This document shows, one piece after another, positions 19,629 to 29,083 of a stretch of 64,000 nucleotides of DNA; the first letter of the stretch is position 1; each line of letters opens with the position of its first letter. The notes below the pieces were generated by a model. That model saw only the letters and a program-made list of their open reading frames with translations. It searched no databases and was not told the origin of the DNA. The stretch spans positions 1 to 64,000 of the forward strand of contig DXGH01000050.1 in assembly GCA_019114005.1 (NCBI GenBank). Reading direction: 5' to 3'. Made by a program: the position numbers and the translations under genes. Origin of the DNA: Candidatus Acetatifactor stercoripullorum (GTDB taxonomy: Bacteria > Bacillota > Clostridia > Lachnospirales > Lachnospiraceae).

Positions 19629-21199
19629 ATCATTGGCAAGAATAAAGGGAAGAGATCGAAACCTCTTCCCAATCATACAGATTTATCTTATTGTTTAATT
19701 GTCGAGAAAAAACATAAGGAGTCTGTATGATGAGTTCAATAATAAAGGAAAACGGCGTAACATTCAAGGAGTTAGAGAAAAATATTTATGCATGGGTCTG
19801 CCAGATCGGAAGAGAGTTCACAAAAGAATTCCTGGAGCGGTATGACCGGATGCTGATGGAAGGCAGGGACAAGAAGAAGTACCGGAATAAGGGAGCCAGG
19901 CAGACAACGGTGAAAACCGTGTACGGGGAAGTAACCTATCAGAGAATCGTCTATGAAGTGACCGAGGAAGATGGAACCAGGCGCTTTGTATATCTGCTGG
20001 ATGAAACACTGGATCTGGATCATGTCGGCCTGATCTCAACGAACCTGTCGGAACTGCTGGTAAAAGGGATTACGGAACTGTCTTACAGGGAGTGCGCCTT
20101 ACAAGTCAGTGAGATGACAGGGCAGACTATTAGTGCAATGGGAGTATGGAACGTCATCCAGGCTTTAGGGGAAAAAGTCTGTGAGGAAGAAGCCGAGCTG
20201 ACAGAAGAATATAAGAGAGGGAATGTAAAGGGGAAAAAAGATGTTCCCGTTCTGTTTGAAGAAGCGGATGGAGTGTATATCAAACTGCAGGGGAAAAACA
20301 GAAAAAAGGAAAAACAGGATAAGGCAGAGATCAAGATCGGGATAGCTTATGATGGATGGAGAAAAACCGGTCCGGATCGGTATGCCCTGGAAAATAAAGT
20401 GGTAGTTGCCGGATTTGCCAAAGCAAAAGAATTCCAGGAATACCGAGAGGCAGTGATCGCGAAGGAGTTTAATCTGGATGAAGTAAGCCAAAGGATCTTA
20501 AATGCGGATGGGGCGTCATGGATCAAGAAAGTAAAAGATAAAAGTACATGCTTCCAGTTAGACCCATTCCATCGGAATAAAGCAGTAAAAGAAAAAATCC
20601 ATGAAGAAGCTGCACGGGATGCCATTTTGGAGCTTCTGAAAGAAGATATTGAAGAATTATTCCAGTATCTGGAGACCTACCGAAACAGTCTGAGCGATGA
20701 GGATGAGATTGAAGATGTAGAAGACCTGATCCATTATTATGAGAACAACCAAGAAGGACTTGTGCCTTACCAATCCCAGGGTCTGGAGCTGCCGGATCCG
20801 CCGGAGGGGTTGGAATACCGGAACATGGGGACAATGGAAAATCATGTGTGGAGTGTGATCGCGAAACGGATGAAACACGGGCACAGAAGTTGGAACCATC
20901 TGGCGAAGATACTGGCCAAAAAATGCAGCGGAAAGCTGCATGAAGTGACAGAACGTCTGAGAAAACCGGTATTTGAAGAAGAAAAAGTAGAAGAGTTATA
21001 CGGCGAGATCCTGATGTCAGCGAAGGCGCCAAAGAAAGACGGAAAGGGCTATCAATATCCAGCAATAGGGCATGTAGTTGGATTGGACGGAAAGATACAG
21101 GGGGAGAGAAAGCGACTGCTGTACATGGCTGGATATTAGAAACCAGAAAAAGGACTGTTTGAACAAAAAAGATAAATCGAAAAGAAAGTTGCCAACGAT
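19629..21199 (+). mobile_element. ISLre2-family insertion sequence (boundaries approximate)
   Basis: The transposase gene at 19727-21139 defines the element. Candidate ends are a short inverted repeat: ATCATTGGCAA at 19629-19639 and its near-complement TTGCCAACGAT at 21189-21199 (10 of 11). No target duplication was found by eye, so the true ends may lie somewhat further out. A GGGAAGAG/CTCTTCCC hairpin at about 19648-19672 stands before the transposase and may shield it from outside transcription. Confidence 0.6.
19727..21139 (+). CDS. ISLre2 family transposase
   Basis: A 470-aa, apparently intact transposase. The family pattern is visible: an N-terminal YKNKGARQTTVKTVYGEV-like segment (here KYRNKGARQTTVKTVYGEVTY), LDETLDLDHVGLISTN, a FEEADGVYIKLQG strand, then ILNADGASWIKKV...FQLDPFHRNKAV and TMENHVWSVIAKRMKHGHRSW near the C-terminus. 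Acidic residues in these blocks fit a DDE-type core. The ATG has AAGGAG 6 nt upstream. It separates the glycosidase locus from the ribosomal-protein operon. Confidence 0.93.
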   Translation: MMSSIIKENGVTFKELEKNIYAWVCQIGREFTKEFLERYDRMLMEGRDKKKYRNKGARQTTVKTVYGEVTYQRIVYEVTEEDGTRRFVYLLDETLDLDHVGLISTNLSELLVKGITELSYRECALQVSEMTGQTISAMGVWNVIQALGEKVCEEEAELTEEYKRGNVKGKKDVPVLFEEADGVYIKLQGKNRKKEKQDKAEIKIGIAYDGWRKTGPDRYALENKVVVAGFAKAKEFQEYREAVIAKEFNLDEVSQRILNADGASWIKKVKDKSTCFQLDPFHRNKAVKEKIHEEAARDAILELLKEDIEELFQYLETYRNSLSDEDEIEDVEDLIHYYENNQEGLVPYQSQGLELPDPPEGLEYRNMGTMENHVWSVIAKRMKHGHRSWNHLAKILAKKCSGKLHEVTERLRKPVFEEEKVEELYGEILMSAKAPKKDGKGYQYPAIGHVVGLDGKIQGERKRLLYMAGY

Positions 21200-25468: not shown

Positions 25469-26074
25469 TTGAATAAGATAGAAATTGTTCAAAATATAAT
25501 TCAAAAATCAGGAGGAATTGCAAAAACTTCTGATTTTATTTTGGCAGGGCTTAAAAATTATGATGTGGCAAAACTTTGTAAGGAAGGAGTTATAGAACGT
25601 ATAAGACATGGTTATTATCAACTTCCAAAAAGTAAAGATATAACCGATGAACAACTAATTGCAACACTGCTTCCACAGGGGGTTATTTGTGTCGAATCTG
25701 CATTGTTTCATTATGGCTATAGTGACTTTGCTCCCCGTGAATGGTCCATTGCAATCCCTCGATCTATGTCAAGAACAGTAAGGCGGATGCAGGAAATTTC
25801 AATGAAAGCTTATTATATTCAAAAAGAATATATGGAACTTGGAAAAACAGTTGAAAATTTTAATGGCGTAGCTCTTCCGGTATATGACAGAGAACGCACC
25901 ATATGCGACTGTTTTAAATATCGCACAAAGCTAGACAATGAGCTGTTTAATAAAGCGCTTAACGCTTATGCCTCTGATGAAAAGAAGAATTTAAGCAACC
26001 TTTCAAAGTATGCAAAAAGAATGCGGCTGTATGCAAAAGTCATGAATGTAATGGAGGTGTTGTTAAATGGTTGA
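25469..26074 (+). CDS. AbiEi-type antitoxin / transcriptional regulator (orphan)
   Basis: About 201 aa of the AbiEi antitoxin family. The N-terminal winged helix (IVQNIIQKSGGIAKTSDFILAGLKNYDVAKLCKEGVIERIRHGYY) and the C-terminal domain (ICVESALFHYGYSDFAPREWSIAIPR, YDRERTICDCFKYR) match the type IV system in which AbiEi represses and neutralises the AbiEii nucleotidyltransferase. The start is uncertain: TTG 25469 (MNKIEIVQ) looks more family-like than GTG 25445. The expected AbiEii gene follows but is only a 41-codon remnant. Confidence 0.85.
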   Translation: MNKIEIVQNIIQKSGGIAKTSDFILAGLKNYDVAKLCKEGVIERIRHGYYQLPKSKDITDEQLIATLLPQGVICVESALFHYGYSDFAPREWSIAIPRSMSRTVRRMQEISMKAYYIQKEYMELGKTVENFNGVALPVYDRERTICDCFKYRTKLDNELFNKALNAYASDEKKNLSNLSKYAKRMRLYAKVMNVMEVLLNG

Positions 26075-26192
26075 TATGGGAGCATCCGTGCTAAAAACAA
26101 TAAAAACCTTTTTGACAAAACCGTTTATGGCAGTAGTAAATGAAAAAGAGTTTGTTGGGAAATGGTCTGCTATTAACAGCGAGTGGATGTAA
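26067..26192 (+). pseudogene. Remnant of the AbiEii toxin gene
   Basis: The ATG at 26067 overlaps the AbiEi stop by 8 nt, as in intact AbiE operons. The frame reads MVDMGASVLKTIK, like the start of AbiEii proteins, but stops after 41 codons at 26192. AbiEii proteins are usually about 300 aa and carry nucleotidyltransferase motifs, none of which are found downstream. The toxin is therefore lost. Confidence 0.6.
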
Positions 26193-26281
26193 AGAAAGTG
26201 CAGGAGAAGTATTGTCTTTTTAGCGACCATACATCTTTTTCCCCGGATACGGTACAATAAATACAAATAAAAGCAAAAAAG

Positions 26282-26323
26282 CAAGATGCAACAGTTTACA
26301 CAAATTGTTGCATCTTGTTTTTT
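26282..26323. terminator. Terminator hairpin formed by the left inversion site
   Basis: The 12-bp stem CAAGATGCAACA / TGTTGCATCTTG (26282-26293, 26306-26317) is followed by TTTTTT on the plus strand. On the minus strand, GCTTTTTTGC follows. It would stop transcripts from both sides, including those from the sigma-28 promoter at 26333-26359. The stem is the same sequence as recombination site L. Confidence 0.8.
26285..26314 (-). repeat. Inversion site L
   Basis: A 30-bp near-palindrome: arm GATGCAACAGTTT, centre ACAC, arm AAATTGTTGCATC (12 of 13 arm positions pair). Read on the minus strand its centre is GTGT, identical to site R on the plus strand. It lies between the lost AbiEii gene and the sigma-28 promoter. 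Confidence 0.8.
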
Positions 26324-26477
26324 ACATTAAGTATATCGGTAAGTATCTATAAAACTTTAGTCTTTTTTAAATTTTCTTTTTTCTAATGGCTCTATTATTT
26401 TTTCCCATGTTAAAAGACCGCCGACAGAAAGACCGCGGTAAAAAGACAATATTTATATGGACAAAGGACGAAGGTTC
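26324..26477. other. Intergenic stretch inside the switch
   Basis: AT-rich sequence between site L and the recombinase stop. Apart from the sigma-28 promoter I see no ORF. The stretch 26400-26450 contains a small GC island, ACCGCCGACAGAAAGACCGCGGT, that could be part of a 3' untranslated structure for the recombinase transcript. Confidence 0.5.
26333..26359 (-). promoter_or_regulatory. Sigma-28 (SigD/FliA) type promoter, facing away from flagellin
   Basis: On the minus strand: TAAAGTTT (26359-26352), 11 bp, ACCGATAT (26340-26333). The FliA/SigD consensus is TAAAGTTT-N11-GCCGATAA, so only the two outer bases of the -10 element differ. The predicted start is near 26325 and runs straight into site L and its terminator. 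No comparable promoter is seen facing csrA or flagellin. Confidence 0.8.
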
Positions 26478-27065
26478 CTACAAGGTGGTTTCCCGCAGCA
26501 CGGCGTCCTTGTCGTCCTGTTCCAGGCAGAGATAGCGTTTTGTGATATTTAGAGAAGAATGATTAAACAGCACCATGATGACAATAGGATCCTTCCCTTG
26601 TTTCCAGGCATGGTAGCCGAAGGTTTTGCGCAGGGAGTGACAGCTGACAGTATCCTCAATGCCGACTCCATCCGCTGCCGCACTGATAATGCGGTATGCC
26701 TGAAAACGGGAAAGCGGCTGTCCTTCAGAGCGTGGACTGGGGAACAGATACGGATTTCCGGACTTATACATCCTTGTTTTGATCAGGACCTTACGGTATG
26801 CGGCAAGCATCTGACGGACACGGTCATTGAGAAAAATACGGTTTTCCTTGCCTGTTTTCCGCTCCCTGATTGTAATATGGGTCCTTACTTTTTTCCCGTT
26901 GTAGACGTTTTCGAGGGTAAGATGCAGGATATCGCTGATACGCAGTGCAGTGTTTAATCCCAGTATAATCAATGCGTAATTACGATAATCAGGTCTTTTG
27001 GTTTTGTAGTATTCCTTGAACTGCTCTAATTGCTTTCTGTCTCTGATTGGCTGTGTTGTACTCAT
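26478..27065 (-). CDS. Short tyrosine recombinase, probable DNA invertase
   Basis: A 195-aa protein consisting almost only of a tyrosine-recombinase catalytic domain. Active-site residues are visible: Arg42 in TALRISDIL, His143 and Arg146 in CHSLRKTFGYH, His169 in LFNHSSLN and Tyr178 in TKRYL. Lys in the RERKTGKEN beta turn may be the catalytic lysine. The lack of an N-terminal core-binding domain and the size match FimB/FimE, which invert the fimS promoter in E. coli. ATG 27065 follows AGGGGAAAAG. Extending to 27185 would enter site R. The gene lies within its own predicted invertible segment. Confidence 0.9.
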   Translation of the reverse strand: MSTTQPIRDRKQLEQFKEYYKTKRPDYRNYALIILGLNTALRISDILHLTLENVYNGKKVRTHITIRERKTGKENRIFLNDRVRQMLAAYRKVLIKTRMYKSGNPYLFPSPRSEGQPLSRFQAYRIISAAADGVGIEDTVSCHSLRKTFGYHAWKQGKDPIVIMVLFNHSSLNITKRYLCLEQDDKDAVLRETTL

Positions 27066-27178
27066 ATTTCTTTTCCCCTTCCCTGAATCCGGCATGAGTG
27101 CCGCTCCTTCGGCTCCGAAGCACCCGGACCAAAGCCCGTGAAATGTGCTTATCTTGAGAGTAATAGAAGCCGGGGGCA

Positions 27179-27208
27179 AATGCAACAGTTTGTGTAAAGT
27201 GTTGTATC
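27179..27208 (+). repeat. Inversion site R
   Basis: A 30-bp site: arm AATGCAACAGTTT, centre GTGT, arm AAAGTGTTGTATC. It matches the reverse complement of site L at 26 of 30 positions. Unlike L it is not followed by a T-run (CCGGGC follows), so it should not terminate transcription towards csrA. It lies 114 nt upstream of the recombinase start and 76 nt upstream of csrA. Confidence 0.8.
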
Positions 27209-27283
27209 CCGGGCAGGAGCGAAAAGGTATTGTCCTGCTGGAACGAAAGACCTGCAGGCACCGAAAACAGGGAGGTTTGGGAC

Positions 27284-27457
27284 ATGTTGCGGCTTACAAT
27301 GGCACAGGAAGAGTATCTGATGATCGGAGAAAACGTGAAAATCGTATTTCTGGGGGGAACCGGAAGGCATATGCGGGTGATGATAGACGCCCCCAAGGAG
27401 ATTAATATCGTCAGAAGCAATGTACTTGAGAAAAATAAAAAGCAGTCTCAAGAGTGA
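27284..27457 (+). CDS. csrA: Carbon storage regulator CsrA (divergent, 57 aa)
   Basis: A 57-aa RNA-binding regulator that blocks translation by binding GGA motifs. It keeps the family core: MLRLT at the start, YLMIGENVKIVFLGGTG with the IGxx(I/V) pattern, and VMIDAPKEINIVR, which matches the IDAPKDVEIHR region. The initial strand (MAQEEY in place of RKKGES) is divergent. GGGAGG precedes the ATG. Flagellin follows 136 nt downstream, with a leader hairpin carrying GGA. In Bacillus, CsrA represses flagellin translation, and the same is likely here. Confidence 0.88.
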   Translation: MLRLTMAQEEYLMIGENVKIVFLGGTGRHMRVMIDAPKEINIVRSNVLEKNKKQSQE

Positions 27458-27467
27458 ATCAGGTAAT

Positions 27468-27524
27468 AACCGGATGAGAAGGCAAGGCGGTCAGGGCCCG
27501 GCGGCGGAGCGGACACATCCGGTT
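27468..27524 (+). promoter_or_regulatory. Long hairpin in the csrA-flagellin spacer
   Basis: AACCGGATG (27468-27476) pairs perfectly with CATCCGGTT (27516-27524). The enclosed 39 nt are GC-rich and contain further GGA motifs. It may fold the flagellin leader and offer more CsrA contacts. No T-run follows, so it is not a terminator. Confidence 0.55.
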
Positions 27525-27547
27525 GCTACATAAAACAAGCAGCCATA

Positions 27548-27567
27548 GGCGCAAACGGATTTGCGCC
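27548..27567 (+). promoter_or_regulatory. Candidate CsrA-binding hairpin in the flagellin leader
   Basis: GGCGCAAA (27548-27555), loop CGGA, TTTGCGCC (27560-27567) form a perfect 8-bp stem with GGA exposed in the loop. A second GGA is in the Shine-Dalgarno AAGGAGG (27578-27584), 23 nt further on. Two GGA sites, one in a hairpin loop and one over the ribosome site, are the known layout for CsrA repression of hag in Bacillus subtilis. Confidence 0.75.
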
Positions 27568-27592
27568 AGGTAAAACCAAGGAGGTAAATTTT

Positions 27593-29083
27593 ATGGTAGT
27601 ACAACACAATTTAACAGCGATGAATTCCAACAGAATGCTGGGGCTGACAATGTCATCTCAGGCAAAATCCACCGAGAAGCTCTCTTCCGGCTATAAGATC
27701 AACCGTGCGGCAGACGACGCGGCAGGACTTTCCATTTCCGAGAAGATGAGAAAGCAGATCAGAGGTCTGACTCAGGCTTCCCTGAATGCACAGGATGGCA
27801 TTTCCGCAGTGCAGACCGCAGAGGGCGCGCTGACAGAAGTGCACGACATGCTTCAGAGAATGAACGAGCTGGCAGTGAAGGCGGCAAACGGCACCAACAG
27901 CGAGGATGACAGACAGTATATTCAGGATGAGATTAATCAGCTGATTACAGAGATTGACCGCGTGGCGGAAACCACCAAATTCAATGAGACCTATCTTCTC
28001 AAGGGTAATGGCTCTTCGGTAGGAGATGAGATTACTCCCACTATCAAGAATGCCGGAGCATTGACAGCATTGACACCAACGTTGGTACAAGCAGAAGCAG
28101 ACGTTTATACCACCGGAGCATTGGCAGGTACAATAACTGCCGGAGATGCAGTATATACAGTGGAGTATATGGATAAGAACGGCAATGTGAAGACCAAGGA
28201 TATTGCCTTCACAACCACAACTGCAGCAAATACTACGGCAGATGCTTTCATTGCTGCCGCAAATGGAGACGCTGACCTGGGAGCACTTTTTGATGTGGAT
28301 GGTGATAATACCGGAATTACATTTACCGCCAGAACAGCAGGCGCAGATCAGGGACGTGTACTGAGCGTAACTGTGAAAAGTGGTTCAGGTTCTACTCTCG
28401 ATCCAGGCACCAGAACCACGACGGGAGCAGACGCTTATAACACATATGATTTATCCGATGCTGTAGATGGAGACGGAGATACCATTACTATCGGTGATAA
28501 GACTTATACTTGGGGAAACGTTGCCCATGCCAGCAATGGAGTTTATAATGACTTTGCTACTTTACAGGAGTTAGCAGCGGCAGATGGTTATATCATTAGC
28601 GGTACTGAAGATGCAGCGACCATCCGTACCGAATCCTCTGCATTGGATTTGAGCCTTCATGTAGGAGCGGACAGTACGGATGAGAATCAGATTTCTCTGC
28701 AGATTGACGCGATGGATGCTACCAGCCTTGGTCTGAAGACGGGCAGCATGGAGATTGACGGCGAGTCTGTGAAGACCCTCTTAGTAAATGGAAGCGATGA
28801 TGCCAATGCAAGGGCAGCCATCGACACCATTTCCGCAGCGATCCAGAAGGTATCTACCCAGCGTTCCGCTCTCGGTGCAGTACAGAACCGTCTGGAGCAC
28901 ACCATCAACAACCTTGACAACGTTGTGGAAAATACCACTGCAGCAGAGAGCCAGATTCGTGATACGGATATGGCTACCGAGATGGTGAAATACTCCAACA
29001 ACCAGATTCTTGCACAGGCAGGCCAGGCAATGCTGGCACAGGCAAATCAGGCAAACCAGGGCGTTCTGTCGCTGTTAAGCTAA
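27593..29083 (+). CDS. Flagellin
   Basis: A 496-aa filament subunit. The conserved N-terminal D0/D1 part starts MVVQHNLTAMNSNRMLG and includes EKLSSGYKINRAADDAAGLSISEKMR. The C-terminal D0/D1 part reads RDTDMATEMVKYSNNQILAQAGQAMLAQANQANQGVLSLLS. Residues about 145-370 are the variable, surface-exposed D2/D3 region, rich in Thr, Ala and Asp. The gene is intact. It stands with csrA and no other flagellar genes, beside the predicted invertible promoter. AAGGAGG is 8 nt before the ATG. Confidence 0.95.
   Translation: MVVQHNLTAMNSNRMLGLTMSSQAKSTEKLSSGYKINRAADDAAGLSISEKMRKQIRGLTQASLNAQDGISAVQTAEGALTEVHDMLQRMNELAVKAANGTNSEDDRQYIQDEINQLITEIDRVAETTKFNETYLLKGNGSSVGDEITPTIKNAGALTALTPTLVQAEADVYTTGALAGTITAGDAVYTVEYMDKNGNVKTKDIAFTTTTAANTTADAFIAAANGDADLGALFDVDGDNTGITFTARTAGADQGRVLSVTVKSGSGSTLDPGTRTTTGADAYNTYDLSDAVDGDGDTITIGDKTYTWGNVAHASNGVYNDFATLQELAAADGYIISGTEDAATIRTESSALDLSLHVGADSTDENQISLQIDAMDATSLGLKTGSMEIDGESVKTLLVNGSDDANARAAIDTISAAIQKVSTQRSALGAVQNRLEHTINNLDNVVENTTAAESQIRDTDMATEMVKYSNNQILAQAGQAMLAQANQANQGVLSLLS

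Follow-up and report, generated by a model that had tools for sequence, protein, structure and literature searches.

A probable self-contained inversion switch for a csrA-flagellin unit in Candidatus Acetatifactor stercoripullorum

A 924-bp segment of the Candidatus Acetatifactor stercoripullorum genome very probably constitutes a self-contained ON/OFF inversion switch for the neighbouring csrA-flagellin unit, and stands in its OFF orientation in this assembly. It lies in the window, that is, the whole stretch of 64,000 nucleotides analysed here (assembly GCA_019114005.1, contig DXGH01000050.1, positions 1 to 64,000 of the forward strand), to which unprefixed coordinates refer. Two inverted sites, L and R, bound the segment, and an intact tyrosine recombinase is encoded between them. 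A preliminary description had proposed a self-contained phase switch; this proposal is now supported by the matching of site spacers within loci, by inversions between sister genomes and by a near-fixed distance between promoter and site. Additions to that description are a sigma-D-type promoter, a terminator-like hairpin at site L, the comparison with relatives and the naming of csrA-flagellin as the probable target. We infer from sequence comparison that the segment flips within this strain and that its biological use is phase-variable flagellin.

Sites, recombinase and promoter of the segment

Site L (26285..26314, + strand, core 26289-26310) is the csrA-distal site and a near-palindrome; site R (27179..27208, - strand) is csrA-proximal and inverted relative to L. 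The inverted 30-bp pair originally described is borne out, since L and the reverse complement of R share 26/30 bases, against 23/30 for L and R in direct alignment. The asymmetric centres, ACAC in L and GTGT in R, agree in the inverted alignment only, and the near-palindromic character claimed for both sites corresponds to self-complement matches of 24/30 for L and 20/30 for R. This is the top inverted 30-mer pair within 25500-28500; the maximum among 60 dinucleotide shuffles of that interval was 23/30, and 26 was reached by none. In the whole genome of the organism (3.07 Mb, 73 contigs) the site pattern, with up to 3 mismatches allowed, matches solely L and R.

The recombinase (26478..27065, - strand, stop codon included) starts with an ATG at 27065 and is 195 amino acids long, consisting of a catalytic domain only. 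Its score with Pfam Phage_integrase, 90.2 bits against a curated cut-off of 27.1, and its complete R-K-H-R-H-Y set place it in the tyrosine recombinase superfamily. R42, H143-x2-R146, H169 and Y178 are all present as previously listed and, together with K70, are invariant across 45 aligned relatives, the window's included. The predicted structure has a mean pLDDT of 92, and the nearest solved folds are XerA/Xer, Tn1549 Int, XerH, integron IntI, Cre and the lambda core; XerA is also on top of the profile matches. The protein is nevertheless not assigned to XerC or XerD, with 63 versus a cut-off of 335.15 bits and 65.5 versus 329.6 bits, respectively, and by comparison with these it is devoid of the N-terminal domain. 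FimB and FimE are small tyrosine recombinases of about 200 amino acids that invert a promoter. The earlier label "FimB/FimE-like" holds for size and mode of action, but by model cut-off the protein is not FimB/FimE. With PRK09870 and PRK09871, two NCBIfam models for a "tyrosine-type DNA invertase" that we take to be those of FimB/FimE (200 and 198 positions), it scores 42.6 against a cut-off of 221 and 43.5 against 222 bits, far under both. Catalysis by the window enzyme would take place on L and R.

Inside the segment, a candidate sigma-D-type promoter, TAAA-N16-CCGATA (26334..26359, - strand), recognized by consensus, points outward through L, in the direction opposite to csrA-flagellin. By itself the motif is weak evidence of promoter activity: TAAA-N15-17-CCGATA has a single match in the window where 0.21 is expected, yet 21/100 shuffles of the window also contain one, and a stricter pattern gives 12 matches in the whole genome versus 8 for a backward control. 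The genome encodes a FliA sigma factor scoring over its model cut-off. Some of its promoter matches precede a flagellin on contig C59 and a cluster on C32 that accompanies a canonical csrA and reads as flgK-flgK-flgL-fliW, names taken from the open reading frames. The consensus agrees with the sigma-28 promoters of Butyrivibrio, Eubacterium and Roseburia flagellin genes in the excerpts of PMC3720852 used here, the main text of which is free of the terms "recombinase", "integrase" and "phase var".

Together with its extension, site L forms a terminator-like hairpin (26264..26323, - strand; arms 26276-26297 and 26302-26323) with a T-run at about 26264-26278 on the - strand. Its predicted fold is of -23.6 kcal/mol (z -6.1), and it is likely to act as a terminator. 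In the computed inverted state, the hybrid site on the csrA side folds at -13.6 kcal/mol and is without a T-run. The probable target of the switch is the pair formed by a csrA-like gene for 56 amino acids (27287..27457, + strand; Pfam CsrA, 56.9 bits, second by score among three CsrA matches in the genome) and a flagellin of 496 amino acids (27593..29083, + strand; Pfam Flagellin_N and Flagellin_C).

The switch would thus operate as follows. Two monomers of the segment-encoded recombinase would bind each of the inverted sites, and the segment would be inverted by strand exchange within the spacer at the centre. In the OFF state, the promoter, whose -35 element starts 48 nt from the site-L core, would read out through L, and the transcript would end at the site-L hairpin and T-run. 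Inversion would place the promoter on the + strand at 27134-27159, with 128 nt between it and the csrA ATG, and transcription would then pass the T-run-less hybrid site into csrA and the flagellin gene. According to PMC3720852, flagellin expression of B. subtilis is inhibited by CsrA. Our guess is that a csrA-like gene switched along with flagellin may keep repressor and product matched.

Spacers and orientation among relatives

Relatives of the recombinase were drawn from 22 places at E <=1e-40 in 61 genomes and from the best 80 of 140 matches in genome contigs. At that threshold 17/61 genomes are positive, the organism's own counted, and a relative is present in 34/294 genomes of an order-level sample; most of the named records with relatives are MAGs of Lachnospiraceae, among them Roseburia sp. 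and Acetatifactor sp. Removal of 6 duplicates across the two collections and of one distant integrase (L003) from 103 loci (L001-L103) left 96, window included. A scan with the window's site motif recovered few relatives, owing to variation in the arms, and the sites were located by a de novo scan instead. Fifteen loci with an inverted-repeat score <20 were set aside, leaving 81, then three (L010, L023, L044) whose best repeat is poor or lies in flagellin code, leaving 78. The promoter analysis further omits L097 for lack of a csrA or flagellin neighbour, giving 77. Among the low-score loci, L046 and L061 have a promoter facing away from csrA, and L054 (sites 2.3 kb apart) and L094 also show sites or a promoter.

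Both csrA and flagellin adjoin the recombinase in 82/96 loci, at least one of them in 89/96, and neither in 7/96, some of which sit at contig ends. Three loci from two other families of the order (L016, L017, L023) have neither gene within 1.5 kb; the enzyme family is therefore wider than its flagellin use. The distant relative L097 has an inverted-repeat pair matching at 24/24 with neither csrA nor flagellin nearby, and is perhaps a switch for other genes. Six genomes from other families of the order (G150, G178, G139, G195, G183, G208) hold four to seven recombinase relatives each.

Strand exchange by tyrosine recombinases requires matched spacers at the partner sites. Identical 8-9-nt centres are shared by the inverted sites of the same locus in 52/78 loci with clean sites, against 34/3,542 comparisons between loci; in direct orientation this is so in 0/78. 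Within a locus (78 loci) the mean spacer mismatch is 0.36, versus 4.65 between loci, and 65 distinct spacers occur. Spacers that vary among loci but match between partners are what strand-exchange recombination demands. Spacer mismatches within the locus are found in 26/78, some of these loci being perhaps decayed. Arm similarity alone is weak evidence because the arms are conserved across the family: matches of at least 22/24 are seen in 70/81 cases with a locus's own flanks and in 19/150 trials with mispaired flanks. Nine pairs of elements share a genome, and all eight that can be scored differ, five in spacer (by 1-5 bases) and three in site length.

The same spacer data weigh against reading the segment as a small mobile element, inserted near csrA and bounded by terminal inverted repeats, whose recombinase would serve transposition or integration. 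The recombinase is indeed enclosed by terminal inverted repeats, its top PHROG match is an integrase family, and relatives on phage contigs reach 36-47% identity (best 80 of the matches listed). However, the csrA or flagellin neighbour is kept in the 89 loci mentioned above, the spacers vary among loci while agreeing inside each, the organism's genome is free of further site copies, and inversion has occurred in place between sister genomes (see below). We consider the mobile element highly improbable. As a control on the switch reading, an inverted-repeat scan found flanking sites at 1/76 scanned phage-encoded relatives versus 81/96 cellular loci.

In 76/77 loci a sigma-D-type promoter directed outward is found 42-57 nt inside one of the sites, matching at 10/10 positions in 56 and at 9/10 in 20; the inward control gives no perfect match and two at 9/10. 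Between the csrA-side site and the flagellin, leaders contain a perfect promoter match in 0/75 cases and a 9/10 match in 5/75. The promoter faces away from csrA-flagellin (OFF) in 71/77 loci, window included, and towards it (ON) in five (L052, L063, L077, L087, L090), in all of which the recombinase is turned too; it is missing in one (L100). This promoter-position rule replaces an earlier automatic count (70 OFF, 8 ON and 3 undecided of 81). L014, L059 and L068 are rejected as ON loci, their promoters being 9/10 matches inside a gene or site. These locus counts are not independent events because near-copies are included (L014/L103, L039/L040, L059/L068). A T-rich stretch marks the outer side of the distal site: the 12 nt outside the site contain on average 7.6 T on the csrA-distal side versus 2.2 on the csrA side, with distal exceeding proximal in 76/78 loci.

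Sister loci occur in opposite states. The element of L087 (ON) aligns inverted with that of L083 (OFF) over 776 columns at 78%, and the flanks are collinear (212 bp at 81% on the csrA side, 49 bp at 94% on the distal side). L052/L013 and L077/L075 likewise combine an inverted element with collinear flanks, and L063/L071 and L090/L096 do so in part, L096 being carried by Roseburia porci, a culturable commensal. All these pairs compare species, at about 71-94% identity. ON rows stand among OFF rows in a tree of 95 recombinases, where the evidence on them consists of their neighbours only; L087 and L083 are joined with support of 100/84, several of the other joins being weakly supported. The locus is thus organized as an inverton, with inverted sites around a promoter (by consensus only) beside a target gene, and both orientations occur between sister species. 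Relatives with the inverted segment and retention of the sites alongside the recombinase, two of the checks suggested in the preliminary description, were both found.

The most serious alternative is that of a locked relic, in which a segment that flipped in ancestral cells has become fixed OFF in this lineage and the flagellin is either silent or served by another promoter. A mostly locked system would look alike, given that 71/77 loci are OFF and that all rows of the window's 13-row clade in the tree are OFF. Moreover, L and R of the window differ at 4/30 bases. There is also one close paralog of the recombinase in the same genome (G000:C47:65147-65704, L002; 59% identity) that adjoins a csrA-like gene and a flagellin and retains the csrA-side site, while neither a distal site nor a sigma-D promoter was found at this locus, which looks like a decayed switch. 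Against this, the window's central spacer is the same in both sites, the enzyme is intact with its invariant residues, and arms differ in ON loci as well, for example in L052 and L087. A locked relic is therefore judged unlikely. Still less credence is due to the outward state being the working one, with a short sigma-D-dependent RNA that stops at the site hairpin and with control of csrA-flagellin secondary: the prevalence of that orientation and the conservation of hairpin and T-run would fit, but such an RNA would mostly equal the site, whose centre takes 65 forms, and a second flagellin lies on that side in L044 and L010, where the promoter is directed at it.

Variant loci and a possible flagellin choice

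The ON/OFF switch preferred for the window has variants in other genomes. Two divergent flagellins flank the element in L010 (G027) and L044 (G012). G012, a genome 73% complete, has three sites with one spacer, at positions 1303, 6798 and 7532 (L111, G012:C33), each before a different flagellin, a possible three-way flagellin choice. In G334, the genome of L042, identical inverted sites bound a 22.8-kb island (G334:C1:229971-252772; L212, L213), each end of which carries an inward-facing flagellin and family-2 glycosyltransferase. The two flagellins are 75% identical, as are the two transferases; the leaders from site to ATG are identical, judged by eye; and both the recombinase and a promoter matching at 9/10 positions are located outside the island. 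In G013, a relative of G334, two contigs with the same site break off at one common base of the leader, a pattern that could stem from a repeat or an assembly fork. The site pair is beside the recombinase rather than around it in L095 and L102, and an additional ORF lies within the element in L049, L067 and L038. That of L049 (L049:3542-4645) belongs to the choloylglycine hydrolase family (PF02275, 267 bits) and lies within the invertible segment.

We lean towards a broader reading, a modular form of flagellin selection that is widespread in gut Lachnospiraceae, in which one recombinase lineage, of an origin separate from Hin, moves a sigma-D promoter among flagellin units, copy-specific spacers keep switches of the same genome apart, and the site acts as an orientation-dependent terminator. 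Most loci would then switch csrA-flagellin ON and OFF. The promoter of G027 and G012 would serve two divergent flagellins in turn, G012 having in addition a third matching site that precedes a third flagellin. In G334 the promoter and recombinase would stay in place as the island turns over, exchanging a flagellin and its glycosyltransferase as a pair. Gut communities would keep much of their flagellin repertoire silent yet reversible. Gut Lachnospiraceae flagellins are immune antigens and TLR5 ligands. If many of them stand behind self-encoded switches, the presence of a gene in a metagenome does not predict its expression, and the state of a switch would be readable directly from orientation-specific reads.

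Relation to known switches

The nearest known systems are Hin, RecV and fim. In Salmonella hin/fljBA the linked regulator gene is fljA, whose place is taken here by csrA. That system resembles the present one in its invertible segment with its own recombinase and in a promoter turned to or from a flagellin unit to which a regulator gene is linked (abstract of PMC9368917 and passages of PMC5903667). Unlike Hin, which is a serine recombinase, the window enzyme is a tyrosine recombinase outside the Hin type, and the sites are spacer-matched, the promoter is of the sigma-D type and the site doubles as a likely terminator. The locus would represent convergence on the Hin switch by means of an unrelated enzyme, and the family would offer natural sets of spacer-distinct sites for studies of recombination specificity.

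The RecV flagellar switch of Clostridioides difficile likewise has inverted repeats that control flagella in a clostridial gut bacterium (portions of PMC5386303), and RecV is termed tyrosine-type in the sections of PMC5903667 used, so that a tyrosine recombinase is common to both systems. However, the same portions of PMC5386303 place a 154-bp switch and its 21-bp repeats upstream of the early flgB operon and sigD, and describe RecV as acting in trans on several switches, whereas here the recombinase is inside the segment, the sites are dedicated and the target is a flagellin gene. The fim segment comprises the promoter alone in 296 bp, while that of the window also encloses the recombinase. 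A precedent for the latter architecture is the putative fimbrial inverton of Providencia stuartii, an 844-bp putative invertible segment enclosing a recombinase gene of unstated type, although it concerns fimbriae, 14-bp repeats and another phylum (both from section 13 of PMC5903667).

Inverton group 139 and invertase group 35 of gut Clostridia are similar in their nearby tyrosine-type recombinases. In the excerpted text of PMC11892184, 32/33 of these invertons are clostridial and statistically linked to such recombinases, and the example given spans about 260 bp versus the 924-bp segment here; "flagell" is absent from that paper, as is "motil" from its main text. A search of open-licence full texts, over titles and abstract openings, returned no description of a csrA-flagellin system of this kind, an earlier mention being possible.

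Two further genes of the window deserve mention. An AbiEi-type regulator (PF13338) is encoded at 25475-26071, on the csrA-distal side of L, and what follows it looks short. A UPF0236 family protein (PF06782, 169 bits), of a family whose members we take to be often transposase-like, is encoded at 19727-21139.
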